Assembly (NCBI GenBank): GCA_019096065.1
Contig: JAGUCH010000004.1
Location: 2,480,001 to 2,544,000 of the forward strand
From: Paracyclopina nana
Lineage: Eukaryota > Arthropoda > Copepoda > Cyclopoida > Cyclopettidae
Reading direction: 5' to 3'
Length of the DNA stretch: 64,000 nt
Made by a program: the position numbers and the translations under genes
Notes under the pieces: generated by a model
Databases searched by the model: none
The model's input: only the letters and a program-made list of their open reading frames with translations
Told to the model about the DNA's origin: nothing
Part shown: piece by piece, positions 26,047 through 50,152 of the stretch
Position numbering within the stretch: position 1 is the first letter of the stretch
How the letters are laid out: every line of letters begins with the position of its first letter

Positions 26047-28318
26047 TTTGACACAAAAGATAACTGCTACTGTTTCTTATCTCTCCTTTTCAAATGCTAG
26101 CTTTGCTTAGGGGATAATTTTAAGCAAACATAGTAGTGAGATAAGTGGTGGTCAATTCAAAGGTTAATCTTAAAAGTGAACTCGGAGCTTTTAGATGCTC
26201 TCTGCAATTATGCTTTTTAGCCTCAAATTAGATTAAGTGAGCTGCTTTCTCTTTTCTGACATTAACCTGATATGAAAGTGCCTTATTTTGGATAATTGCT
26301 CAGCAGATATCACTTACAAAACGGCAGAATTTTTTAAATCCTAAAGCTCACCAATTTCACCCAAGCTGTATTTAGTAGTACAAATAAGAGTTGGCAAAAT
26401 ACATACTATCTATGAGAGAAATAATTTGTTCAAGCCCATTTTAGCCAAGACAGACCAAACATTGTAGAAAATATGCTTTAAATTGCTTTTTTGGGCGTTA
26501 TTTTTGGCTAAAATACCTAAAAAGTATTAAACTTTGAATGAGTCATGACCAAATCTTTGTGACTGCAAAGTCATTTTGCAAAAATGCAAGTGTACCATAA
26601 ATTATCCTGGATATCTGACTTTTAGTTAAATCCCATGAAATGTTGAGCTGATTGAATTTTTGAGCATGATTTAAAATTGCCTCTTACCATTGGAGGAATC
26701 TGGCGGATGTGCGAAAATGTCCATTTTTCTTCTGGTTGTTGGAAAGGGAGCCAGAGTTGAAGTGAAAGGGAAAAAATGCGCCAAGAGCGGTAATTCTAGA
26801 GGAGCTTTCCCGCGGCCGCCAATACCGTGGGATTTTCTCTACGGCTTTCGTTGGAGGCGGAGCCTTCCCCTTCTACTCAAACCTTAATTGAGAGCGTAAT
26901 TACTTAATAAGCCCAGATTGCGAAGCCACCTCTCCGTTACAAAAGTGAAAAATACAAACAAGGTGGTGCGCCATTTGCTGAATAAAAAGAGCTCTTATTG
27001 GGCTCAATGCAGCCAATTGGGTAAATGGCGACTCTAAAGTAAGTGACTCAAAAGAGCTATAGACTCCAAAAGTTGTGAGGTATTGTTTTATGTGTAATTT
27101 TGCTCAAAAACAGAGATTGTACCCTACTCATTCACTTTTTATGCTGTTAAGGAAATTAGAAAGAAATTTGTATTATATCTATTTCTAACTTGCTGTTCAA
27201 AAATCAGGAAATGGCTTCAAAGACTTTTAAAGGCTGGCTTTGTATTGCAGCAGTCAAAAGTGATGGGTAATGGGTATAATTTTCATTGTGGGGCATTGGT
27301 CGCATTAGGAACCCCAGAGCGAGCTCGGAAATCGAATTAACCCGATTACAGCAACGAAGAAAACGTCGCGCCGCGGCTGGAGCTTCTTTCTCTCATGTCC
27401 AATTCCATCTTTGTCATCAAAATTAGATTACATTTTCCGCTCCAAAACCACCAGTGTGCAAATCAAAGGTTACACGAAAAGCAAGCTTTTGCAGGTGTAG
27501 TGCATTAGGTTTTTTTAATCCCCTATGCGTGATTTTGTCGGGGGCAACTTTTTTAATTCAATTGTGTTGACAAAGATTGAATCATTGCAATTTCTGCTTG
27601 TTTTCTACATCAGTTGTGAATGATTATGGCTCTCAATAAATGTTTGGGTAGGGCTGGGGATAGGATAATTATGATTTACAGTTGACATTATGTACCATAT
27701 CTATGGTATCTCTTCTTCCAGGTTTGCACATGGTCATTACAAAAGGGCTAACTATTTTATTATTTTGGGATCTGTGCTACTTGAGATGTAAAATTGATCA
27801 ATATATTTGTAAGTATCATGTGCAGAAATTAATTAATTGTTAAAAGAGAACTTTGTAGGTTAATAAGTGATATAGAGTCAACATAATGGGTAGGTTTCTA
27901 GCTTTCTCCCTCCCAACTCTCTGATGGGGAAGTGGTAATAGTGCTTTCACTAGGACACAAAGACATGTTCTGGTTGAGAAAGCACTGAACCACAGGATTC
28001 TCAACGTGACACATCAATCATACAGAGCTTGAGCTGACAGGAACAACCCAAAGTTGATTCAACATTGCCGAAAATAATTTGGCAATGTCATTTGATTTAG
28101 ATGACTCAGTACTATTGTCTAAATACACAAGCTAGACTCTTGTCTTTGTGTTGCACATACTTTATTGTTACTAGATTTGTTAGTTTCTGTAAGTTAGGTT
28201 GTAATTTTATGATGGCATATTTTTTAACAAGGTATATGGTGATAGCAGTGACATTAATGTAGACCTTACATACTAAATTAGTTTCCCTTACATGGCTATG
28301 TTAAAGTAATAAAATAGA
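26047..28318. other. Intergenic stretch, no gene recognised
   Basis: Lies between the 5' end of the ACCS-like gene and the 3' end of the Rab32-like gene. Two short G+C-rich patches occur at about 26780-26870 and 27300-27400. No ORF, RNA gene or paired transposon ends could be supported. Confidence 0.45.
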
Positions 28319-31300
28319 TTAGCATTTGCACCCAGATGCTTTCTTTTTCCTGTCATTAACTTCTAAAGTGATGCTATCACACTCTAGCTGATTTTCTTTA
28401 TCCCTGTTGGACGAGGAGGATGGATCCATTTCATGCTCAACAATCTGGAAATTAAATGAAGAATGTCAATTATAGTAATGGAAACTTTTTCCTTGATTCT
28501 GTGCTTCCAAAATTTTATGTGGTGTTTGTTGGTTTCATTACATTGTCATATTTTTTGTTTTCAAAATAGGTAACCCCACAATTATTGCCTAATTGTGATC
28601 ATGTATTAAAAATCAATTACCATTTTCAGCAACAAAGTCATAGCATCATTTATGTTGATGTCCTCCTTGGCTGAGGTTTGAATCCACCCTAAAAATACTA
28701 TGGTTCAACTTGTTTACTTGTTGAGCAATTTGAAAGTATACCTTGAAAGCCATGCTGTTGGCAAACCTTTGCATGTTGCTTGCTCTGGTGGGATGAGTCC
28801 TCAATCAAGTCACACTATATCAGAAACCAACAAAAACATTAGCAAAATATGTTGCAAGAAAAAATTGTCTTACCTTGTTGGCTAGCAAGAAGCATGGCAG
28901 AGTTGTCCCATCAGGTCTTTGAACCTTGGTATCCAACTCCTCCTTCCATGCAACTACTGCATCAAGTGTTTCTGGTCGGCTTATGTCACTTACAACAAAA
29001 GCACCCACAGCATCCTTGTAGAAGGATCTGGACAAAAGACTGAACCGATCCTGACCAGCAATGTCCCAAAGCTGAAGTCTTAAGGTTATATTTTCATTCC
29101 ACTTGACTACTTTGGCCAAAAAGTCTGCACCAATAGTTGCCCTAAAAATAAATGATTACAAAAACCTGTAATGATTCCATTTAAGACTATTTTTGTGCCT
29201 GTAAGATGGAGCAAAAGTTTTCTTGACATATCTTCTTATGATAGAAGTTTTCCCTGTTGATGAACTTCCAATGAATAAGATTTTGCAAACTTTTGTTCTT
29301 GTTGGAAGGGAACTCTGAAAATATTAAGGCTCACATAATGCAATTGATTGAATGACTGTTGCTCAAAATGTTCCACCAAAAAGTGCCCTACCTGTGGAGA
29401 CAGTATAGGCTCAAATCTTCTGTGTCTAATCCCATGAGCTCTTCTTGCCATTCTTCGCTGATAGATGCTGAAAAATTCTTGATCATCAAATTCATCATCA
29501 TTTGGTAAAACTCTGCTCCTTTCTTGGTAAAGCTTGGCAGCCCCAATGACTTCCAACTCTTTCTGTAGTTCATCATCAATGATGCTATGCTGGATTTCAC
29601 TGTCATTGCTTGAGGACTGAGAAATGTATGCATTTTCTTCAAGAATATTTTCATGGCTTCCGCTAGACAAAATTACTCCAGTTATTGATTCACAGATAGG
29701 CTCATTTATTTCTTGGTCTGACTCTTCAGTTGAGGTTGGCTCCTCTTCAATATTACCAACTTCAAAGGAAATTGGCTCTAACTCAGTATCCTTGTGAGTC
29801 TCCTCAGTATCACTTCTGAAAGAAACTTCTTCACAGTACAACACTTTTTTGTCATTTGGACACTCTTCAATGATATTGTTGGCATCTTCTGAATGCTCAA
29901 CTTCAACCACTGTCTCGGCAGATGAGTTATCTTCAGATTGCATTTTCTCTTCAAAAGCTCTGGCAACCTCTTCATTGGCTGCAATGCTGGATGTTGTTTC
30001 TGACTGATGATCATCTGTGCTATTGGATGACAGCTGACCATGTCCATCTGATATTTTTGGTAGGTTGTCAATTGATACAGATCTTAGATTTAAAATGGTT
30101 CCAGTATCAGTTTGTCTAATGTCAATACTGCTCTTGGCAAGAAGTTTTGATGATGATGAAATGTTCAAACAATCACCATCAAATGAGATTGTTAGAATGT
30201 CTGAAGCTTCTAATTCTTTCATTGAAACAGAGAACTTGAGAGTCTTCTTCAAGCTTGATTCAGAGTGACTTCTAACTAAGCAAAAATCCTCCATTGCCAA
30301 GTTTGATGATGCATCAGGCTCTCTGTCTTCAGGTTGGGATGCATTACTAATGGGCCTTAGATTATCATCATTTTCCCCAAACTCTGGGGAAACAGTTTCA
30401 AGTAGTTCTGATTTGCATTCTTCACTATCATCAATTTTGGTAGACATGTCTTCAGTGGTAGTCAATGTATCAACTTGACTGGGAATATTTGTAGGTAAGC
30501 AATCTCCAGTAGTTGTCTCAAAGTCAGTTTGGGCAGACTGATCAATTTTAGAGTCAAGATTTAGCTCAAAATTGGTTAATTGTAAACTTGACATAGCCTT
30601 TTTTCTTTGATTTCTGAGATGGCAATTGTGTGGTGCATCTCTCTCATTCATCAAGTTAAATAGCATGATCAAGTCTTCAATTGATCTGTTCCTCTTATTG
30701 CTTCCTTGCTGGTTGCTTTTGCAAAGGCTGCATGTAATACTAGGTAGCTCATCATCCTGATCAGTCTTGGAACTGGTTGTATTGGCATTATTATTTGGCA
30801 AAACTTGTTCATGCAATTGAAAACAATGAGGAGTTATGCCTTGCCCATTAGTCTCACATTGAACTGATGACTCTGAAGTTTTACAACCTGTGTTGCTAGC
30901 TTCAAGTTGAGTCTCTTCACTTTTAGGTTTTGTCTTATGAACTGTCTCATTAAGCTGCTCCATTTGATCACATATAATTTTGCCAATAAGTAATCCATCA
31001 TTTTGTGGTGCCATTAACTCTGATTCGTTTTTGAAAAAACATACCTCCAGCTTTGATTCATCTTCACCAGCACCAGAGCAATCACCATCTAGTGTCATGT
31101 TGAGCTTTTCAGAATTGTCAAAGAATCCATTTCCTTCATGTTTTTCAGTTTCTGCAGCTTTAACATTACCATGACTTGGTTCAATCAATAACTCTTTGGC
31201 ATTCTGTTTGTGCTCTTCTATTAGGTCAACATGTATCAAGCTTGTATCAACAAAAGATAAATCTTGAATCATTGCACTTTTTGATGGAACACTTTCTTCC

Positions 31301-34300
31301 TCACTTACCTTGGAGAAGCTTGCTCTATTAATATTTGACTCTTCAAGCATTGACTTCATCAGATCAAGTTCAAACAATTTCCTTTGCTCATAAACTGGGA
31401 GCAAAGGGTCTTCACTGACTCCTGATGATATTTCATTGGATGCTTCTAGTTGCAAGCCTTCAACTCTCAGGTCAAGTTCAACTTCCTCCACCAACCTTGT
31501 TTGACAGAGTTCTTCATCGTCATCATTATTAGCTGGAATGTTTTCCTTTGGAGCCCTCAGCATTTCCATTAGCTTTGCCATAGTTTCTTTCATTTCAATA
31601 ATGCTTTCTAGAGCAACTTTAAGTTCTTCTTGCTGCTTAGAAATTGACAAATCAGGCTTGCTTGAATAGCTTTCATAATTTTCATTTTCAATGCCTTGTG
31701 CTTCAGGACTAATATTTGTACCCTCAGAATTACCCATATTGCCTATGCCATGAACCTTGCTTGAGTCTTTTGGTTGCTCATAACCACTACTTATGCTTTC
31801 ATTTAAAAGTGGCTTGTCTTCTGCAGGGTAAGTATGTTGATCAAGGCTAGCATTCTCTAAAGTTTTTTCTTTTAAAAACTCTGATTCATTCCCATTGTTT
31901 GTTAGGTGTTTATTGCCATGGCAAAATATTGCTTCATTTTGATGAAGAGCTTTTTGCGCTGATAAATCTTGTGGTTTGTTTCTATCAACTTTGGGAGACT
32001 CAACTTTGTTTGATTCTCTTTCAGAAGGAGTTTCTTGTGCTGGTAACCCTATTGTTAGCTCAGGACCAATTTCAGATCCTAAATTGTTATCTTCAGCAAA
32101 AACAGGCGGCATTACTTTGACTGACTTCTCTTCTTCAATATAAAGTGGAAATTTCTTGTCTCCCATCTTGGCAGTAGATATATTCTCTGTATTATTGAAT
32201 GTGTTTTGACTCTCATGCCCTCTGACCTCTTCTGGACTGCTTTCTAAGGGATGGTGGGGCAAACTTATTTCATTGCATAATCGCTCATGGCTTTGCAGCT
32301 CTTTAATTGAAAAACTGCACTCACCCTCTCCAATCTCATTTTTCATCATGCAGGGCTCTTCAAGCAGTATTGATGCAGATTCCATTTCAGTCTGAGATTC
32401 TGGCTTAATGGAACCAAGCACCTTTTCTTCTTCCTCTATAGACTTGACTATTTCAACCTTTTCACATGCTAGGGCCTCAATATTATAAATGATCTGTTCC
32501 AATGCTGTAATAATAAGCTTTAGGTTTAGATTATCAAATTAGAAGGAATTTGGTTTTACCTGGATATTTGCGCTTGCCTCCATCAACCTGTTTTGAGTCA
32601 TTATCCTCATTAGTTTCCAGTGCATTGTTAATCAGGGTTTTGTCGATTTTGTAATGTCTTTCTTCTGCTTTTTTAGGCTCATTATATTTTTCAACATCAA
32701 AAATGAGCTCTGACAAAGTTTGGGCATTGTTTTTGAGAGAGGGCTTTACTTCATCCACCGATTTGGTGAAAAAACCTTGGATGTGCTCAGCAGATTTAGC
32801 AATGGGTAGTTCTATTTCCACTTCACCAGTTTTCTCGCTAATCTCAATGGAACTATTCTCTTCCTCATATCTTATTGAGTCCACTTCTGCTATCATTTTG
32901 TCATCAAATTGGGCAGTTGAGCTGCTTTGAGCCTGAACTTTACTTTCTGATTCTTGATCAAATCCAACATTTTTGTCTTTTGCAGGCTTATTGATAATTC
33001 TCAAGTCGTGGCAGATGATCTCTGATTCAATTTCCTCTCTTTCATTTTCTGTTTTTGTTTCATTGCATTTTTGCAAGTGAAACTTAGTATTTTCTGATTC
33101 TGTATTTTTTAGGATTGTTGCTTCCTCAACTGTTAAGGAAATTTTTGAATCATCTGTTTTGTTTCTTAAATTTTCTGATTTTCTCCCTGCGCTATCCATG
33201 AGCTCACATTGACTTGCACTGCTTACAGAGTCAATATGAATATTTTTTGACTGCTCTTCAATTTGAGTACCTTCACAAATATATTCTTGCCACATGAATT
33301 TGTATTTGGCACTCTTCACATATTTATCACTCACTGATGAAATCATAACTTGCTCTTGATCATTGTCTTCTAGTAAACTCTCATTGATTCCATCCAATGA
33401 CTTCACTGAAGCCATCTCATCTCTGATATGATCAAGATCATTGTCATCAGCATCATCTTTTACTGCTCCAATTGAGTCTTCATCATTCAAGAGAATTTTG
33501 TCTTTTTCTCCAAGATCCTTTTCCTTTTCTTCAACTTCTGAATAAATTATGCTCTCAGATTTGCCAGCTTCCTCAGTCTCTTCATCACAGTTTTTATCAT
33601 CATCACCATCATCTTCTCCAATGAAATTATCTTCATTAATTAAATCCATTTTTTCTCCTTTCTTGTCATTGTCCCAGTCATCCTGGTCAATATAAACAAT
33701 GTCTTCAGTTGATTTTTCATTTCCTTTGGCAGATGAATCCTTTTTATGATCATGCCAGTCTTCTACATTACCATCATCTCCAGATTCTTCAGCAGCATCA
33801 CTTTCTTCTGCTTCTATATCAGCTTCGTCTATCAGAACTTGATTATTCATTTTAATGTCTTCCATGTGAATTCCACTTTTATCTAGAACAAGATCATCAC
33901 TTTTTTCAAATTTTATTTCATTTTCATCAGTAGATGAATCAGTTTTATAATGATCTTTGTCATCTCCCTTGCTATCTTCTCCAGATTCTTCAATATCATC
34001 ACTGTATTCATATTTAGTATTGTCATCATCTGTCAGATCATTTTCATCTTCAAATCCTGCTTCAGTTTCATTAGTAAATGAAGCAGTTTCATCATAATTC
34101 TGGCCAAATCCCTCACTATCTTCTCCAAGCTCTTCACCATCATTGCTATCCTCAATCTCAATATTGTCTTCCTCTTTCAGATCCTGATTTGTCTTTTTTA
34201 TTTGTTTACAGTTTTTGTCCCTATCATCCAAGTCCATTATATCACTTGCTTCATATTCTTTTTCATTTTCTTTAGCATAAAAATCAGTTACATCTTCATC

Positions 34301-36340
34301 TTGCTTATCTTCCTCACTATATTCCCCAAATTCTTCATTACCATAACTATCTTCTTGTTCAATATTGTCTTCCTCTACCAAAGCTAGTTCGTTCTTTTCT
34401 AGGTCATCCTTGTCTTTGTACCTGTCAGTTAAACATTCTTCATTTTCATCATCTTGATTGGTCTCCTCAGAAATATCTTCACTACCACTGCCATCTCTTT
34501 CAGAAATGTCATCTTCTTCATTACCTTCATCACTGTCTTCATCAGATTGAACTTTGTTGCCCTGATCTTCTTCTTGCTCCTTTTCTTTTGATTTGTTGAT
34601 TTTTTCAGATTCTTTTCCTTCAAATGCCTTTTCTTTTTCTTGAAAAAAGTTATGACTTTCTTTTTTATCCATGTCACTATCCTCATTTATACTCTCTGAA
34701 GTACTTTCTTCTTCTTCATGAGTAAAAATCTCAATAGGATTAGATTCTGATAGAGGCTGCTGTATACGATGTTCCAAATTGAAGTTCTCATTCTCAGAAT
34801 CATCATTCAAAATTAAGGTTTCTATTGAGGGTTCACCCTCATCATTAGATGTTGCTTGATCAGAACTAGCTGGATTTGAGTTTCTTAAATCAAGATCAGA
34901 ACTATCTTCAGATTCCTGACTGGTTCCAGCTTGCTGCTTTTTAAATAGCTGAGAAATAAGCTTCAAATTTACAGGAGCCTTTTTTATGGCTAGAACTTGC
35001 AGCAGTTTCTCAATATCAAAAGTTTCTTCATCAATTCCTTTTTCAGATGTTTCGGGAGGCTTCGCTTGTTCCATCACAGACTTCTTTAAATTAAATGGTC
35101 TTACAGGTTTAACAACCTTAGCTTTCCCCTTAGGCTTTACGCTGGGGTTGGATAATTTTTTAGCTGTTTCTTCCCTGTGAATTTCATCTTCCATGTTTGT
35201 TTTGTATGAAATCAGCTTTGGTGCTGAAGCTGACTGGTTGGAACTTGCATTTTTGATAGCAGAAACTGATATACCTAGAGCTGATGTTATCTTGTTATTT
35301 TTTTTCTTTTTTTCATAAGCTGAGCTCACTTGAAGTACTTCTTCATCAGTAGCTTGTTTAAAATCTGGTTCATTAGTAGAATTTGATAGTCTAAGCTTTC
35401 CATCTGATCTCTTGAGAGCCTTCATCTTCCTTGTATCTGGCAAAGGTACTTTTTGCTCTTTAGAGCAGGGCTCTTCATGACGATTGATTTCTCTTTGCTT
35501 GCTAATAGTGACATTTTCTTTGGAATTATTTGCAAAATCATTAGCACTTATTGAGGCTTCTCTCTTTTCCCCTCTCCTGGCTTTAATTTTTGAAGGCAAT
35601 GTCAAAACTGTGGACACCTCATTTTCAATCTTGGTTTCATTTGGGTTTGTGAGTGAGGTACCTAAACTCCTTGATTTTTCATTGCTCTTAAGACCATGTG
35701 TTATGACTTTATTTTTTTTCTCTTTCTCTTTTATCCTTCCACTTGTTAACTTGCTCTCTGGCAAATTATTTTTTTGTCCTATTGTTGATGTGAATTCAGG
35801 GGATTCATTGGAAACTGTGTCAATTGTGGGCTGACTACCTTGGGATTGTTTTTGGTCTATGATTAGAGGACTTGGCTTAGTCAAGTGTTTTCTTTTAGGG
35901 CTTGGGGATCTAGCATTCTCATCAATTAAGGCAGAATCAATTTTGTATGAAATTGATCTTGCATTTCTCTTTATAGGACTTAAAGATCTCGGTTGGATAT
36001 TATCAACTGCCGGTGAATCAACCTTTTCTCTATGTTTAGCAATTGATTTGTCAGTGGCTTTGTCTTTTCTTGCAGTTTTAGGCTTTAACTGCTTGGATTT
36101 GCTTTGGGGGATAAGTTCTTTAATGCTGTCAACTTTGGGTGCATCTCTTTCAGGTGCTATTTTGGTAAGTGTTTTAGTAGGCAATTCCTGGCTAGCAGAT
36201 AAAGAGTCCACGTTTTTCTTTGGCATTGAAGAAGCAGCCATTCTCTTTTGGAGATCATTTTGATTGCTTGATGATTTCTTCGTGGCCAATCGTGGAATAC
36301 GAGTTTGCTTGGGCTTGGCGGAGTCCTCATTTTTAGGCAT
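28319..36340 (-). CDS. Rab32: Giant Rab32/38-family GTPase with about 2,300-residue N-terminal extension
   Basis: Seven minus-strand exons stay in one frame and predict about 2,514 residues: 36340-32560, 32504-29392, 29314-29199, 29141-28874, 28814-28742, 28688-28621 and 28444-28319. The last about 215 residues are a complete Rab. They show P-loop GSSSTGKTS (2314-2322), switch I ATIGADF, WDIAGQ (Ile instead of Thr is the Rab32/38 signature; catalytic Gln2367), NKCDL, TSAKE and a C-terminal GCKC for double geranylgeranylation. Rab32 proteins act in biogenesis of lysosome-related organelles. The first two exons (1,260 and 1,038 codons) are polar, Ser/Glu/Asp/Lys-rich and likely disordered, with an acidic repeat region. 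The ATG at 36340 is the first in frame. An alternative is a short transcript starting nearer the Rab domain. The intron at 29198-29142 needs a GC donor. Confidence 0.85.
33680..34375 (-). repeat. Degenerate acidic repeats inside the Rab32 extension
   Basis: The coding sequence for about residues 655-890 reads as roughly four diverged units of 50-75 residues. Each pairs an EDNIE.ED or similar start with E-S/L-GEDS and a DETAS/KTDSS-type core, then ENE...DDL. They are rich in Asp and Glu. Only amino-acid similarity is clear, so the duplications are old. Confidence 0.6.
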
Positions 36341-36342
36341 TT

Positions 36343-36444
36343 TCAAGCTGATTTAGCTGCGATCAGAGCTCCTGTCCCAGTTAAGACAACAACAAATATG
36401 ACTGAGCTGATCACAACCAACAGCAAGATGAACTCAGTAGGCAT
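36343..36444 (-). CDS. 33-residue hydrophobic micropeptide ORF directly upstream of Rab32
   Basis: An ATG at 36444 opens a 33-codon frame that stops with TGA at 36343-36345, two bases before the Rab32 ATG. The peptide begins MPTEFILLLVV, continues with a Val/Ile-rich membrane-spanning core of about 20 residues and ends GALIAAKSA. An in-frame TAG lies six bases before its ATG. A candidate splice acceptor (TTTTAG) lies further upstream. It may be a translated membrane micropeptide on a bicistronic mRNA, a regulatory uORF, or chance. The long hydrophobic run makes pure chance less likely. I recognise no family. Confidence 0.45.
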   Translation of the reverse strand: MPTEFILLLVVISSVIFVVVLTGTGALIAAKSA

Positions 36445-37412
36445 GATCTAGCCAAGCATCTAAAACAAAAATAATGCTCAATATGTTTTGTAAACTCGTG
36501 AGTCTTTGCTGTGTTAGGTTTTATTTTAGTGGCTTTATAGAGGAACTTACCCATTAAAAATTCATAGTAATTGAACAGCTGTCCAAATGTCATTTCAAGT
36601 CCTTCTAGCTGAGCTCCAGAACAAGAAATGATTCTTACATTCGTGAATGCAGAATACTATCTGAATCAGGCAACAAGTGTCTTGGTGTAATGGAATCTAC
36701 ATTTTATAATCCTGTGTAATTCCTTGATTTGATGGTTAACAAGTGTTTGAAGAAACTTTATCTTCCGAATGCTTTATAACTCCTACAAAGAAACTTGACA
36801 AAACATCTCTCTGACTTTTCATTTACAAGCCATTCAAAGATTTTATTTTGGCCACCATACGGTCATACTTTATTTTGAAATCTTTCTAATCATGCCTGCT
36901 GCCATGTTAACGTGGCTGCAAAAATAAATAATTACCAAACGTTAAATAATGTTCGTGCACAAAGTTAGCTAGAAGTGGCAAAAAGAGCTCATCTTTTATC
37001 GAAGTCGAAAGTCTATTGCAATTTTTAAGTTTAATCTAAAAAATGCTATGAGCATGCAGCTCATTACTTTAGCATTAATTGCTTGAAAATATTAGCCATC
37101 AGTGAATAGTTACTACATCAATTTCTAAAAGTACATAATTTGATTTATTGCCTATCTTTGCATGTGCTCTTGTGAAATGTGCTTTAACAGCAAAATGCAT
37201 GGAGGCAATTTTATGAGATGTACCTATAAAAATGGTAAAACCCACATTACATAAAACTCGTTTCTGTGCAATGCATGGCTCTATACAACTCTTGAGGGTT
37301 ATCAAACGAGATGAATAGTGTAATCTGATCCTTCACCTGAGGTGCTGAGTCAAATTATTTGCATTTTCATTGATTACGTTCTGATTTCATTCAAAAGCTG
37401 CATTTTCTTGCC
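36445..37412. other. Intergenic between divergent Rab32 and SLC35G genes
   Basis: Should contain both promoters and the 5' UTR exons of the Rab32 transcript. No additional coding block, repeat or clear core-promoter pair was recognised. Confidence 0.4.
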
Positions 37413-38694
37413 ATGATGGAGGACAAAGGTGAAATAAAGTGCGAGGCTCAATTTGCCAAAGTTGAATCTGTTACAACGTGGAAAAAAGTAGTAGTTGGTG
37501 TGATATTGGTTGTGCTTGCTGGCTGCTCTTTTACTTGCTCGAATGTGATTCAGAAGATAATTTGTCCCACTTTGAGCTTTTGGACGCTGATGCTCGTTCG
37601 CTCTCTTATGCAAACCACAGTTATGGCAATTCACGTCATGGTGACAAAATCCAGCATATTGAGCCAGTCAGAATTGCAAACAAAAGTATTACTCCAAGGA
37701 TTTCTGGGAGGAATTCAAATATTGGCTATTTACGTGGCAGTGAAAAATATTCCGTTGGGAAACGCATCTGCAATTTTCTTTTGCACTCCAGTAAGCCTAC
37801 TTCACTATTATGTCACATTAAAACTGATACTTTTGAAGATAAATAATTTTTTCAGGTTGCCACGTTCGCATTGGCAATTTTTATGCTGAAGGAAAGATTT
37901 GGCATGTATAGAGGTCTGATTTCTGTTCTCATGATTAGTGGAGTCATTTTGATTACAAGGCCAACTTTTATTTTTGGCTCTGATTTTGCTAGTGTTTCTA
38001 ATGATTCGGAAAATAATTCCACAGCCCCAACCAGCATTGGTGAATTTTCCTTAGAGTCATCTAATGGCATTGGCTACTCAGCTGCCTTTGCAGTTCCACT
38101 TTTACAAGCCATCAATTCAATCCTATCAAGGCAGTGCAAAGCCATAAAACCATCAGTTCTCATGTTTTGGTTTGGCGTTGGCATCTTCATAAGTGGCATT
38201 GGAGGTGATTTTTAATTCTAGTGAAAAGCTTTGTTTGCCATCATTGTGCTCTTCTAGGGATTGGCACAGCTTTTCTTGTCTCTGCTGCTGGTAAGCCATC
38301 CAAGAATATACTCAAGATTTTACTACTAACCTCAAAAGTGTGCTTATTAACAAATGCTATTTTAGGTGGTCTATCAATGAATTATGAGAGTATTTTATTC
38401 TTGGCTGATGTGGAAATAATCTTTGCTGTCGTCATTTCCATTGTCGGTACAATGGGTAATTTATTTCTCATTCTTGCTGTCAGGTATGTTTATTATGGAA
38501 TTGTCCTTCTCAAAGAAATTAACAGAGCATTTTGAAGGTACATCAGCCCGAGCAAAGCTAATGTATTTCGCAGCTTTGAGGTGCTGCTCAATTACTTGCT
38601 CCAACTTTTTGTGGAAAACTTGCCTTTCCATCCACCTGACATTGCTGGCATCATTTTTCTCATCGGTGCTGTATTTGCCACTGGATTTGAGTAA
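37413..38694 (+). CDS. SLC35G1-like drug/metabolite-type transporter, copy 1
   Basis: Five exons, 37413-37790, 37856-38204, 38258-38290, 38366-38483 and 38538-38694, join in phase to about 344 residues. The protein has the EamA-type ten-helix layout of SLC35G: a first half with CSFTCSNVIQKIICP and LGNASAIFFCTP, then FALAIFMLKERFG and ISGVILITRP at the end of repeat one. A second half follows with WFGVGIF and PSKANVFRSFEVLLNYLLQ. A glycosylation-prone Asn/Ser loop separates the halves. SLC35G1 has been linked to ER-plasma membrane calcium control and citrate transport, but substrate here is unknown. The second gene with identical exon phases starts 392 bp downstream. Confidence 0.88.
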
Positions 38695-39085
38695 GAGGTC
38701 ATGAGCAGAAAAATACATGCAATGATGTGAGGGGAAAAAACTTCCATTAAACCCACTTAATTCAGAGGATGAGATGTCTCAGCATCTCATTATGAGAGCG
38801 TTACGTAACTCAAGACTTCCACTTTATGCAACTACCAATTTTGCACAGCTGAAAGTGCTAATGAAATAAAAACTGCTTTCAGCAATTTTTAGGCCCAAAA
38901 ACCCTTTTAGATATGCCATAGTAAGCAAATGAGTTTTTTCTATAAAAAAAACATGAAAATACGTTCGTTATTTGCTGTGTTCACCATTTGAGCAATGAGT
39001 TCATGAGTCGAATAAAATGCGAGATAAATGTAAGAGAGAGAAAATCTAATTGTTGAAACAGTTGGCCACTGAATGTGCGGTCATC
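38695..39085. other. Spacer between the two SLC35G copies
   Basis: Holds the 3' UTR of copy 1 and the promoter of copy 2. No other feature is visible. Confidence 0.5.
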
Positions 39086-40377
39086 ATGATGTCTGGTCAG
39101 GGAGAAATCCTTGATACCAAGCCAAAGGTTGAGCAAGGCTTGTCATGGAAAAAGCTCCTGATTGGCTTTCTTTTTGTCTTGGGAGCCAGCTGCTCCTTCA
39201 CCCTTTCAAATGTGCTCCAGAAGATCATTTGCCCCACGCTGGATTTTTGGACCCTGATGATCATTCGGTCCTTGTCTCAAATGTCCATCATGAGTGTGTA
39301 CTTGGCTGTGAAGAGGATACACTGGACCAATGACAACGAGTCGCTGTGGATGATTTTGCTCCAAGGCTTCCTTGGCGGTTTGCTCATTTTGGGTGTTTTT
39401 GTCACCATCAAAAATGTACCTCTGGGAAATGCCACTGCCATTTTCTTCTGCACCCCGGTATAACAATAATAATTTGGTACAAATAACAGTAATTTTCAAA
39501 TTATGCAATTTACAAGGTCGCTACGTTTGCCTTGGCTACTTGTACTTTAAGGGAGAGATTTGGTCTGTACAGAGGACTGATTTCGGTTGTCATGATTAGT
39601 GGAGTGATTTTGATCACGAGGCCTCCTTTGATATTTCCACAAGAAGACTCACCCCAAATTTTAGCAGCAAATGGGACTTTGGGTGAGCTAGAAGATTCCG
39701 CGGCAAATGCTATGCCTTGGATTGGCTACTGTGCTGCCATCTGCGTGATGCTTTTGCAAGCCATTCTCTCTATTTTGATGCGGCAATGCAAATCTGTGCC
39801 ACTTCCTGTGATCATGTTCTGGTTTGGAGTGGGCATTTTTTCCGTTGCCATTGGAGGTAATAAAAAAGCCAATTAATTTATTGCTATTATTATTACTTTT
39901 TTGGTGTGTGTGAAATTCTAGGAATTGGAATTGGCCTTGTCATCACAGCAACAAGTAAGAGTGAATTTTCTGAATTGACTTTCTCAGTGTAATTTCCTGC
40001 TTTTGAATAGAAGAAGGAGATTTTCAAGTGGATGACATCTTTGATTTGAGCCTGGTGGAAGTTGCTTGTGCATTTGCCATTGCTGGGCTTGGAATGACTG
40101 GCTATGTCCTATTCATCTTTGCTATCAGGTATACACAGCTTCAATTGATAGTTTCACAAGAGTCAACTTTTGCCTTGCCAAAAGATGGATTGGGCCCAGT
40201 AAAACCAATGTTTTTCGGAGCTTTGAAGTGATTGCGAATTACTTGCTGCAACTATTCGCGGAAAATATGGCTTTCCACATTTCTGACATCGGAGGCGTGT
40301 TTCTCCTCGTTTTGGCTGTTTTTGGAATCGGCTTCGAGCAAGAAGTCATGCGCCGGAATTTTCACCGTTTCTTGTGA
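39086..40377 (+). CDS. SLC35G1: SLC35G1-like transporter, copy 2
   Basis: Five exons, 39086-39457, 39517-39856, 39922-39954, 40011-40128 and 40185-40377, give about 351 residues. Every exon boundary and phase equals that of copy 1, including a 33-bp third exon in both, so the pair arose by tandem duplication. Shared blocks are FWTLM-IRSL, LLQGFLGG, LGNATAIFFCTP, RFGLYRGLIS and SKTNVFRSFEVIANYLLQLF. The C terminus is longer than in copy 1 and ends in a basic stretch. Two adjacent ATGs (39086 and 39089) could both serve as start. AATAAA lies at 40378-40383, directly after the stop. Confidence 0.88.
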
Positions 40378-45101: not shown

Positions 45102-47904
45102 TTATTGACTATCGGAGCCCTCAGCTTGCTCCAGAATGACTTCAAATGAGAATGGGATGAAAATGTAGCCATCTCCCTTGTAGAACTTGGACTGGAACTC
45201 CACCCAGTGAAGACGAAGCGTGTGCAGGAAAGCTGACAAGCCTTCCATCAAGCAGAGAATACTGACCGTCAACATGGCCCAAAAGGCAAAGATCACCCAC
45301 AAAATGACACCTCCATACCTGCAGACAAAAATAACTGTCATGAGCATAATTATGCAATGAAAGGCAACAAATAGAAATTACCAAGTAGCAATGGAAAGGC
45401 CATTTCTCAAGACCATGTTCCACAAGACTTCGGACAACTGCGCATGAGCTAGAGACAAGGCCCACAACCTCAAGTATGAAGCGGTGTGAGAGACAGAGCC
45501 TAGAACGTATTCGATGGTGTGGATTGCCTGCAGAATGAAGCATTCCACGGTGTCAAAGTTCTCCTCGTGAGAGTCCACTGCCCCACCAGATCCGTTAACG
45601 TTGTGCTGTCTAGCAGACGCTTTTTGGTTATGTTGTCGCATCAGCATGAACGGTTTTACAATCAGCATCCAGGGCACGCACAAAACTGCCACGACCACAA
45701 GCAGCTTTTGGATGCCTCCTTGCCCAGCAAACATGTAGCCATCACAGCCAGGCTCAGCTAAATATGTAAAATTAGCACGAGTGCATGATGCATTGGGAAA
45801 TGTCACATTACCTGTGTTGTCTTTGAACAAGACCATGTTGATGAACGTGATGAGAATCGAGGGTGCACAACGCTCAGAATTGGCAAAATCCTCAGCATTG
45901 GCGCCATACATGGTCCACTTCATCCACATGAGAATGGTCAAGTAGCCAAACATGCAAGACATGAAGATGACCTGCGGGATGAACTCGGCAAAAATGTTAA
46001 GCGGTTTCTTGAAGTAGGTCGCGTTCCAGTAAGACAAGAAGACTCCAAACATCATGTGGATCACGCCGAGAATGATGGAGACCTTCATTTTGAAGGAATT
46101 CAAGAAGACGATCTTGTTTTCCGAAATCTGCCACGCGGGGTCAATACCGAACGGATAGGGAGTTCCGTAGTAGTCAGTCGGCCTTCGTGGGTTGATCAGC
46201 ATGTCCTTCCTGTCCATGATCTCCTCAGGAGTCAGGCTCGCCTGCCAAGACGATCCAAAGACATTGAGAGACTTTGAAAAGATGTCGTTGTAGATCAGCC
46301 CAGTGTATATGGAGAACATCGCCATTAGTGTGATAAGATAACGGCCGTTAAAGAAGTACTTCCAGATCTCATTGTCGATTTTGCGAGCCTCCAGCATCTT
46401 CTCTTTGATGCACATGTAGAGGCCAAAGCAGAGCATGATGACCCCATGGCCAGCGTCGCCAAACATGACAGCAAACAGGAAGGGAAATGTGATGATTGTG
46501 TATACTGCAGGATTGGCCTCTTGGTAAGTGGCTACTCCATAAGCATTGATCAAGGCCTGGAAGGCTCCCGTGTACTTGTTGGTCCTGAAGAACGTCGGAG
46601 GCGACTCTCTTGTGTTCATCTGGTTCAAGATTGGTGCCACTGTTGAGCCAGACTTTTCAGTGCCTCTTCTTAGCGCCAATTGGATGGCCTCAATGTCAGC
46701 CGTTGGAATCCAGCATTCGGCGATCAAGCATTTTTGGGTGACGTCCAGATTGAACATGTTCAACGTGTGGTAGATGGCCTTGATTTTCCTGACCTTGACA
46801 AACCAGCACTTGATGTTTTTGGCTGCTGCCACTAAAACACGATGGCGATGGTCGTTCGTCTGACCGAGCACAGTGTTTAAATCCTCCAGCCTTTGCATGA
46901 CTCCAACGGCCATTTCTCTTCTGTCCGCAGCTTGGTCGGGGCAAGGATATAAGGTGGCTCTGAAGCCTTCGCAAATTTTCTTCACTCTTGACTTGAGTTG
47001 CTCGCCTTGGAAAAAGATGATGAACACAGATTTGTACACTTCATCTCCTTGGCCAATTTGTGGATCTTCCAGAGGATCTTCAATTTCAGCCTGGCGCAAA
47101 AATACGTTTCCTCGGCAAGCTCGCCAGAGCATTCTTTCAAAAGCTGGAATCCTCTCCCTAATGAAGAGATGGCCATAAAAAAGCTAATGACTGTAGATAG
47201 CATTGATGATCTCACCTGAGAATGACACCAGCTACAAATCCAAGCTGAAGGCCGCTAGTTTGTCCGCCTTCGTCACTGATGAGCTGCTGGTGCTGCCCAA
47301 CAGGTCCGCCTTCAAGTTGGTCTTGCTCTTCGAAAAATTGCTGGGTCTTACGCAGAATGTGCTTCAGCTCTGTAAGCTCTAAAAAGTTTTTCTTCAAGGC
47401 TTCCGCGTTTTGGTTCACTTCTTTCAGCTCGTGCTCAAGTTTCTCAAAGGTCGCCTCCAAATCAATCATTTCCCTTGGCTGAGGGGCTTCCATGGAGGAG
47501 TCTCCAGAGTCCATCATTGGGATGTCGTCTTTCTTAATCTCCTTCTCCAAAAACCTCAACTTGCGCTCCATTTCATCGCATCTTCGTACCTCGTTGACAA
47601 ACTTGCGCTGAAAAGCTGAAGTGTCTGGATTCAAGTCCCTGAATTGGACCAAGCCAAGCTCTCCAAGCTCTGACACGCAAGCATAGGCAGCCTCCGATTG
47701 CAAAAAGAGCTGACAAAGGGCCATCTCTTCGCTGCGAAATAGGCTGCTATTTCCTCCCGATGAAGTGATGGGTCCACCGCCGTACGCCTGGCCTTGTCCA
47801 TTGTTGTCATAGCCTTGCTCCTGGAGCTGGTAATTCTCGCCATAATCCTCAGTGCCATATCCCTGAGTGTTGTCGCCATTGTAGGCGTAGTCTTGATCCT
47901 CCAT
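45102..47904 (-). CDS. Vha100: V-type H+-ATPase 100-kDa a subunit with novel N-terminal extension
   Basis: Subunit a of the membrane V0 sector supplies the proton half-channels. Minus-strand exons 47904-47216, 47157-45812, 45757-45382 and 45318-45102 join in phase to about 875 residues. From residue 57 the family pattern runs [36 protein letters not shown], then the membrane half with FGDAGHG and [19 protein letters not shown]. Arg775 in that last block is the essential proton-path arginine. The 54-bp intron 45811-45758 is open in frame but has clean splice signals and removing it restores the family spacing. The first about 56 residues are Gly, Tyr, Gln and Asn rich and are absent from usual a subunits, which begin MGxLFRSEEM. 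An AATAAA overlaps the stop codon. Confidence 0.92.
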
Positions 47905-49294
47905 GGCGACAGCCTGTCAAAAGAATAAATGGGTCAACGTTTTCAACAGGAAGTCGAAGAAATGCTTGAATACCGATATAGCGGCTTGCAAACAAAGCCG
48001 AAGTTTTTCATTAAAAAGAATCATGACAGAGCTATATATAGTTTTTTGCCTCGGTCGATTTGGCGAGATCTGTTATTAAGATAAATATAGCTGAATTCTT
48101 ACCCGAGCAGCAAAGAATTTCCCACAAAATTCGCTAGGTCACGAGAGTTGCTATTGATTCGCACCAGATGTTGTGGAGAAAGCTCAAGTCTCTCCTTCCT
48201 TGGCTAGCCTGACCACCTTACTCAAGCTTGGAGGCTAGAAAGGCCTTCTCTAAAAAAGACCAGGATCTGACAGCAAGGCACGGCTAGAGAAACGACTGTT
48301 CGAACAGAAGAACAAGCAAATCTTTTGTTACATATTTGAAGAATTTTTAAGGGCTAATCTCTAAAAATGACCTATGATTTGCAAATTCTATTGTGGTTTT
48401 TCATTGTAAATTAAGTTCGATTTATGTTAGATTTTTATGTAAAATAGTAGTTTCAATTGCAAGGATTCATGAAGGTAGCTTGAAATTTTTGTTTGCACTT
48501 CTTTGTCGAGAGAGATTTTTACGGGGAAAGCGTATTAACAGTAACTATTGTATCCTTTTTTCAGTTACGCGCTGCCAGTGATTCATAATTTTAAGTTATA
48601 AGAAATCTTCCCCGTTAGGCTGTGCGCGGAAAACTAAATATCATGAGCAATGACCATTTTTACAATTAAAATCGTATTAGGGTGAGTAGAACCCATAGAA
48701 AGATGCCCGAAATCTTCCATTTTAAGCTCCACAACCGAAGAGCGTTACCAAAAAAAGGGATGCCGTTGATTTATACAAGCTCATGTTTGGTTAAAGTTCT
48801 GTCAACAAAAACTTCTGTTCGTTGATCAGCTTTTGTTGGCAAAATGCAAAAATTGCAAATGCTCTGATGATTGCTATCTTAATAAATGCGGCAAGATTAG
48901 ACGGAGGTCGAGCCGTAAAATCTAAGGTGCAAAATAGCGTCACTCACTAGATTTGATAGGAAGAGAGTGTTAAAATAGCCTAACATTTGCACACTTTAAA
49001 GAGTTTTTGAATATTGAGAATGAAGTATTTCGAAGGAGTGGGAGGAATAAGCTATAATTTTGATCATTTGGAGCAGGAAAAAAGTTGGCTCGCCTTGAAA
49101 ATTCGATCCTTTGGTCACTTTTTGCTTGTTAGTTGTTACCGCACGACTTCTGCAGCAGCGTTGCTCCATGGCTTTCTAAAAGTCAGCCGCGGCCAATAGC
49201 CGACAATGTTTTGCATCGATCGAGCTGCAAAGATCGCAGTGGCCGCTTTCCATGAGCAGTTTTAAGAAGAATCCGGCCGATTAGCAGGAAAAGT
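47905..49294. other. Intergenic between divergent V-ATPase and ZDHHC24-like genes
   Basis: Expected to contain both promoters and V-ATPase 5' UTR exons. A CTATATATAG word lies at about 48031-48040. No coding block was recognised. Confidence 0.4.
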
Positions 49295-50152
49295 ATGGCT
49301 CGCAGAAAAGGCCGCCTTTTCCCCCGCCAAGTGTCTGACATCGGCGCCTTCATTTTCGTGTGCTGCATGATTCCAGCCACCTACGTGTACGAGGTGGGCC
49401 TTGTGCTGCCCAACCTCTACTACCAAGAGGCTTACATGAGCTACCTCATGCACATGGCCGTCGGCTTTTTCCTCCTGTTCAACCTCACGGGCAACTTTTG
49501 CGGCCTTTGGCTCACCGACACGAGCACCAGGTTCGTCGTGCTGCCCTCGGTGATCAAGAATTCCAGGTGGAAGTTTTGCGCCTCGTGCGAAAGTGTCACT
49601 CCTCCGCGCTCCTGGCACTGCAACATTTGCAACATTTGTATTCTGAAGAGGGAGCACCATTGCATGTTTGTTGGGTATTGCGTGGGCCATCGCAATCATC
49701 GCTACTTCTGCCTCTTCCTCTTCTACATGTGGGTCTCTGTCATCTACTGCTCCTACTTCAACACGGCCTTCCTGGTGCCCCAACTCAGCGAGGCCTCGTG
49801 GTCGCAAATTCTTAAGTTCATTTTCCCCATGGTCATGCTGATGACAGGCCTGGATGCATCCTGGCTCCAGGTCTACATCTTCTTCTGGAGCGTCCACTTT
49901 GCGGCCTTCCTGCTCACCTCGGTCCTTCTCTTGTACCATGTCAATCTTGTGCTGAAAGGCCGCACAACCTTCGAGAACAACAATAATGTCAACATTTACC
50001 ACTTGGGCTGGAAGCAGAACCTGCTGGAGGTCTTTGGCCGCAATTGGCGCAAGGCCATCATCTGGCCAATGGCTCCTTCCTCTCTGCCCCACAATGGAGT
50101 TGACTGGGACACCGCCGAGTCCTGGAGGCAGGAGGGACCAAAGAACAGATGA
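49295..50152 (+). CDS. ZDHHC24: ZDHHC24-like protein S-acyltransferase with EHHC motif
   Basis: A single-exon gene of 285 residues. DHHC enzymes transfer palmitate from CoA to protein cysteines through an autoacylated Cys. The cysteine-rich domain has FCASC, PPRSWHCNICNICILKRE, then HHCMFVGYCVGHRNHRYF. The motif is Glu120-His-His-Cys123 rather than Asp-His-His-Cys. Several hydrophobic helices lie on either side. The C-terminal YHLGWKQNL, RNWRKAIIWPM and NGVDWDT align with the ends of ZDHHC24 proteins, so the length is normal. The gene is clearly more G+C rich than its neighbours and lacks introns, unlike most genes here, which suggests a retrocopy. Asp to Glu keeps the charge, but in tested DHHC enzymes changes in the motif often lower activity. 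Confidence 0.88.
   Translation: MARRKGRLFPRQVSDIGAFIFVCCMIPATYVYEVGLVLPNLYYQEAYMSYLMHMAVGFFLLFNLTGNFCGLWLTDTSTRFVVLPSVIKNSRWKFCASCESVTPPRSWHCNICNICILKREHHCMFVGYCVGHRNHRYFCLFLFYMWVSVIYCSYFNTAFLVPQLSEASWSQILKFIFPMVMLMTGLDASWLQVYIFFWSVHFAAFLLTSVLLLYHVNLVLKGRTTFENNNNVNIYHLGWKQNLLEVFGRNWRKAIIWPMAPSSLPHNGVDWDTAESWRQEGPKNR

Follow-up and report, generated by a model that had tools for sequence, protein, structure and literature searches.

Rab32 and Rab38 have their counterparts in lightoid of flies and GLO-1 of worms. The Rab32 family is described as acting in lysosome-related organelles (PMC3425129, PMC7818423), and its members, as set out in PMC4728774, include Rab32LO (Rab32B), a protostome sister class of Rab32/38 with two diagnostic histidines in switch II, and Rab29 (Rab7L1), which shares with Rab32 a clade marked by the stretch FALK after switch I. 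The large Rabs Rab44, Rab45 (RASEF) and Rab46 (CRACR2A-L) are given as ~70–150-kDa proteins that contain EF-hand and coiled-coil regions (PMC8303950, PMC7818423); Rab44 and Rab45 have been assigned to Rab group I (PMC3425129), relatives of both are reported from C. elegans (PMC3504004), and Rab44 has reported roles in lysosomal exocytosis and melanosome transport. Here we describe a gene of the copepod Paracyclopina nana that shares features with both sets, found in a 64,000-nucleotide stretch of its genome (GenBank assembly GCA_019096065.1, contig JAGUCH010000004.1, positions 2,480,001 to 2,544,000; hereafter the window, to whose first letter coordinates refer unless another contig is named). 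Like Rab44, Rab45 and Rab46, its predicted product would end in a Rab domain preceded by a long N-terminal region, but unlike them it has no detected EF-hand, a Rab32-like G domain (group III) and a predicted mass of ~283 kDa. Like Rab32 and Rab38, it has WDIAGQ, YRATIG and a CxC end in or behind its G domain, but unlike them it has FLAK after switch I, an altered switch II and a 2,298-residue extension. We put the probability at roughly 60% that this is one gene encoding a giant Rab32-family paralogue of 2,514 residues with a mostly disordered N-terminal extension. No giant or otherwise long Rab32 of this kind is found among the matches listed in the open literature, nor is a long lightoid isoform described in the available portions of PMC8016483, PMC5068940, PMC13093652 or PMC3279429.

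The coding sequence, as modeled, comprises seven exons on the minus strand and 7,545 nt, or 2,514 codons followed by a terminal stop, the only one in frame; its six introns measure, in order, 55, 77, 57, 59, 53 and 176 nt. The principal features are as follows.

32560..36340, minus strand: exon 1, with the ATG at 36340; codons 1–1260 plus base 1 of codon 1261
32505..32559, minus strand: intron 1, 55 nt, CCAG/GTAAAACC ... TTACAG, phase 1
29392..32504, minus strand: exon 2, the remainder of the extension up to residue 2298, acidic and Ser-rich
29449..29451, minus strand: internal in-frame ATG (Met 2279), A at −3 and G at +4, a possible start of a 236-residue Rab
29315..29391, minus strand: intron 2, 77 nt, ACAG/GTAGGGCA ... 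TTTCAG, phase 0, the extension-to-Rab junction
29199..29314, minus strand: Rab exon 1, G1 (GSSSTGKT) and the beginning of switch I
29142..29198, minus strand: intron 3, 57 nt, GC-AG type (CAG/GCACAA)
28874..29141, minus strand: Rab exon 2, ATIG, WDIAGQ and NK
28742..28814, minus strand: Rab exon 3, CDL of the NKCD box
28621..28688, minus strand: Rab exon 4, TSAK box
28319..28444, minus strand: Rab exon 5, hypervariable tail, GCKC prenylation end and TAA
28161..28166, minus strand: AATAAA poly(A) signal, ~150 nt 3' of the Rab stop

Consistent with the initial annotation, which had been made from the sequence alone, we found both large exons free of stops, the start at 36340, the stop at 28319 and the junctions 32560/32504 and 29392/29314 all where it had placed them, and the joined protein does run in phase into a complete Rab with its G boxes, WDIAGQ and CKC end. 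The two stop-to-stop frames concerned, of 1,272 codons (32537–36352) and 1,100 codons (29239–32538), are the longest in the window. Exon 1 has no in-frame stop, whereas its two remaining forward frames contain 69 and 222, and exon 2 likewise has none against 54 and 158; in 500 first-order Markov simulations per large exon, no open stretch exceeded 138 codons in the exon 1 set or 167 in the exon 2 set. The observed lengths lie far above all simulations, which rules out a chance origin of the two open frames, and base use in the large exons shows strong codon-position periodicity. The donors of the two large exons also score well when splice sites are ranked by scores trained on the 20 most clear-cut introns of Rab genes in this genome, seven of which are 55–66 nt long: against the 349 GT sites of 28000–37400, donors 32559 and 29391 rank third and seventh, and the acceptors of introns 1 and 2 rank 23rd and 51st of the 818 AG sites in the same interval.

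Whether the large exons and the Rab exons belong to one gene or two bears directly on this reading. The first Rab exon contains no ATG 5' of G1 and thus requires an upstream coding exon; all that lies between it and the divergent EamA-type open reading frame (ORF) at 37374 (plus strand) is a 1-kb leader, the two large exons and two introns. The initial annotation had held that a poly(A) site between the large exons and the Rab exons, or a start just before the Rab domain as the only form, would speak against a fusion. From the end of exon 2 (29392) to the Rab stop there is neither an AATAAA nor an ATTAAA; as to the start, none lies before G1 in the Rab exon itself, but a possible one, ATG 29451, lies inside exon 2. 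Taken together, the missing ATG, the missing poly(A) hexamer and the divergent ORF 1 kb upstream make one gene the simplest reading, and an in-phase fusion of a Rab32-family G domain to ~2,300 mostly disordered-looking residues is, on the genomic sequence, the simplest gene model.

One could instead envision exons 1 and 2 as a separate gene for a disordered protein, with the Rab as an overlapping downstream gene. The exon 2 frame does run 51 codons past the donor, crossing the 77-nt intron before it stops at 29236–29238, and the fraction of G or C at third codon positions (GC3) is unlike between the extension (0.27–0.30) and the Rab exons (0.42). We nevertheless regard two genes as quite improbable: no AATAAA or ATTAAA separates the stop at 29236–29238 from the Rab stop, the Rab exon offers no ATG ahead of G1, and the junction is in phase with a high-scoring donor. 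Somewhat less improbable, though still unlikely, is the use of alternative promoters, whereby the working Rab would be the 236-residue form begun at ATG 29451 and the giant form would be one, possibly minor, isoform. Met 2279 lies in the reading frame 20 codons ahead of the end of exon 2 and has a favorable context (CGAAGA/ATGGCA), and long and short forms are described for large mammalian Rabs (PMC8303950); such a model, however, leaves 2,278 upstream codons staying open for no purpose.

The C-terminal 216 residues form a Rab32-family G domain. Searched against the PDB, this part scores 209 bits to Rab32, 188 to Rab38, 157 to Rab29 (Rab7L1), lower than to Rab32, and 116 to Rab7; a Ras-type G domain is recognized by Pfam (Ras, 125 bits against a cut-off of 21.6). 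Given the GC-AG intron, the G1 box, the threonine of switch I, the glutamine of WDIAGQ, NKCD, TSAK and CKC are all kept, and the GCKC-stop end supplies C-terminal prenylation cysteines. The window Rab carries the WDIAGQ of the Rab32 family, the usual counterpart of which is WDTAGQ; DIAG is part of the switch consensus given for Rab32/38 (PMC4728774). Other features depart from the family pattern. After switch I the window Rab reads FLAK in place of FALK, which is found in the canonical Rab32 of this genome (on contig C3, see below), while a further relative on contig C7 reads FQLK. Its switch II, DRFSLLSRSFY, differs from the ERFGNMTRVYY of Rab32/Rab38 and contains neither of the two Rab32LO histidines, and its FAPSYRATIGAD and DIAGQDRFSLLSR are just partial matches to FSxxYxxTIGVD and DIAGxERFGxMTR, which are given as the deuterostome Rab32/Rab38 switch consensus (PMC4728774). 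According to a review, switch II alone classifies Rabs consistently with phylogeny (PMC7818423). A tree of 32 rows unites the window Rab with human Rab32, human Rab38 and the two other Rab32-like genes of the genome in one clade (96/94), but places it outside the group that joins the C3 gene to Rab32 and Rab38 (82/80, modest support), and it pairs weakly with the C7 gene (87/39).

Of those two other genes, the first is a canonical short Rab32 on contig C3 (1779086–1779989), which scores 274 bits to human Rab32 as compared to 209 for the window Rab to Rab32 (separate queries), and the second, on contig C7 (exon ~6794039–6794386), is another divergent relative at ~160 bits to Rab38 and Rab32. 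Because these exist, the window gene is not this genome's Rab32. The name Rab32 given to it earlier thus stands as to family, which the PDB scores and the tree both indicate, and fails as to identity: by its sequence, the window gene is a divergent Rab32-family paralogue and not the genome's lightoid orthologue. We also observed, in the region of the C7 gene (6793196–6793843, minus strand), three copies, similar in translation, of FVGHKKANESQFALICPGFVGQSWPD... between exons.

Searches with the 2,298-residue extension, roughly tenfold longer than the Rab part, found no Pfam family and no PDB relative at E≤1 for either large exon, and an EF-hand was thus undetected; at E≤0.001 there was no second match in the genome. 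On these empty Pfam, PDB and same-genome searches, we rejected the extension as a known domain protein. Charge is segregated along the extension: residues 1–500 carry a net charge of +34 (pI 9.9), residues 501–1000 one of −139 (pI 4.05) and residues 1001–2298 one of −133. The ~2,300-residue N-terminal region had been called disordered, and it does look so by two measures, with the charge-hydropathy index assigning disorder to 21 of 23 consecutive 100-residue blocks covering residues 1–2300, and AlphaFold2 giving a pLDDT below 50 to 1,194 of residues 1–1200 (mean 32.3) and to 975 of the 1,037 residues of exon 2 (mean 34.7). Low-confidence helices appear at exon-2 residues ~290–314, 977–995 and 1007–1028, the last two adjoining the Rab domain. 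Composition and low-confidence folds thus indicate that the extension would be mostly disordered. Two [ST]xIP sites are present in the extension where 0.95 are expected; the one at residues 13–16 (QTRIPRLATKK), which presumably resembles an EB-binding site, lies in the basic head but has two acidic flanking residues and did not pass a stricter filter. LIR-like motifs are well under chance (2 against 7.8 expected), and the other patterns tested are near or below it.

Several of our observations weigh against a single gene for a giant, disordered Rab. The gene model was derived from the genomic DNA of one genome. A complete switch I calls for a GC-AG intron. At the place of intron 3 we could fit seven introns of at least 20 nt that are in phase and free of stops, and only two of these keep switch I, namely the 57-nt GC-AG intron, which yields a YRATIG identical to that of Rab32, and a 24-nt GT-AG intron that was rejected as too short. 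The remaining five, four GT-AG choices (63–126 nt) and one GC-AG choice (111 nt), were rejected because they delete switch I, so that every GT-AG choice of usable length does so. Within exon 2, moreover, the phase-0 donors at 31308 (score 9.8) and 31044 (8.6) outscore the donor used (7.8), also of phase 0, and splicing either one to the Rab exon would trim the protein to 1,875 or 1,963 residues. There is little chance that such a trimmed form is the real product, as the last 551–639 codons of exon 2 remain stop-free to 29392, which would be unexpected of an intron. Nine AATAAA/ATTAAA hexamers also occur within the large exons.

Codon usage adds to these points. Among 16 stop-to-stop frames of at least 250 codons, drawn from 104 kb (the window plus four 10-kb samples), the large exons have the lowest GC3 (0.27 for exon 1, 0.30 for exon 2), the remaining 14 ranging from 0.38 to 0.76. 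Synonymous choice in the coding frames is under the base-composition expectation, at −0.13 bits per codon for exon 1 and −0.11 for exon 2, lower than in their other forward frames, and codon bias thus gives no support for coding. Codon usage is common to exons 1 and 2 (r = 0.945), and its correlation with that of the other window genes is 0.53 and 0.60 for the large exons and 0.77 for the Rab exons. This usage is compatible with weak selection for codon choice in a disordered region that evolves fast; it is no evidence of coding. Repeats within the acidic block hardly stand out from shuffled sequence: their best window scored 73, whereas 60 shuffles averaged 52 and went up to 76, and third positions were clearly the most different in only two of six windows, without consistent excess. 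As for disorder, the charge-hydropathy index is not specific, because it also scores block 2401–2500, within the Rab domain, as disordered, and the AlphaFold2 folds, made from single sequences without an alignment, lend weak support; for both reasons disorder is indicated and nothing stronger. The role of tether considered below is one that we infer throughout.

Other features lie near or within the giant Rab gene. The exon end just 5' of the GC-AG intron is the top-scoring acceptor-like site of 28000–37400, and a possible 5' leader intron may be placed at 36550–36460 (donor score 9.0, acceptor score 9.8). A 33-codon ORF at 36343–36444 (minus strand; MPTEFILLLVVISSVIFVVVLTGTGALIAAKSA) reads as one transmembrane helix and has no Pfam match at E≤1; it ends two bases 5' of the giant Rab ATG and could represent an upstream ORF or encode a micropeptide. 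Elsewhere in the genome there are (TTAGG)n arrays, the usual telomere repeat of arthropods, which agree with an arthropod source, and a search for a mitochondrial marker found none. Head to head with the giant gene lie two neighboring EamA-type transporter ORFs in tandem (37374–39876, plus strand), and farther along the window are a 601-codon ORF for a V-ATPase 116-kDa subunit (45381–47183, minus strand) and a DHHC palmitoyltransferase ORF (49256–50149, plus strand).

If the single giant gene is real, its G domain, with motifs for nucleotide binding and hydrolysis and a CxC end, would be expected to be geranylgeranylated and to cycle on and off membranes like other Rabs. In the most likely mechanism, the GTP-loaded Rab end would then anchor the protein on a late-endosomal or lysosome-related membrane, a site suggested by the role of the Rab32 family in lysosome-related organelles, and the extension would act as a long, flexible, GTP-gated tether, showing short binding motifs or its basic head to the cytoskeleton or to partner membranes. 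With its own anchor and a flexible extension, such a Rab would bear its own effector arm, and because the genome has a canonical Rab32, the paralogue may serve a different task.

The best reading of the sequence is that the window gene is a new large Rab without the EF-hand of Rab44, Rab45 and Rab46. Tentatively, and with more doubt than confidence, it could be seen as founding a large-Rab class on the Rab32 branch, in which a ~283-kDa polypeptide joins a prenylated switch to a 2,300-residue disordered, charge-segregated effector arm and serves as a GTP-gated long-range tether; an equally speculative part of that proposal is that the tether would link lysosome-related membranes to the cytoskeleton or to other membranes. 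These considerations suggest caution in naming Rab32 from a single hit in such genomes, which may select a divergent paralogue. If the giant gene is confirmed, the Rab32 branch would include a member about twice the upper size of Rab44/45/46, in which a disordered arm replaces the EF-hand and coiled-coil regions; large Rabs would then have more than one origin, and a Rab would be able to carry its effector in cis.

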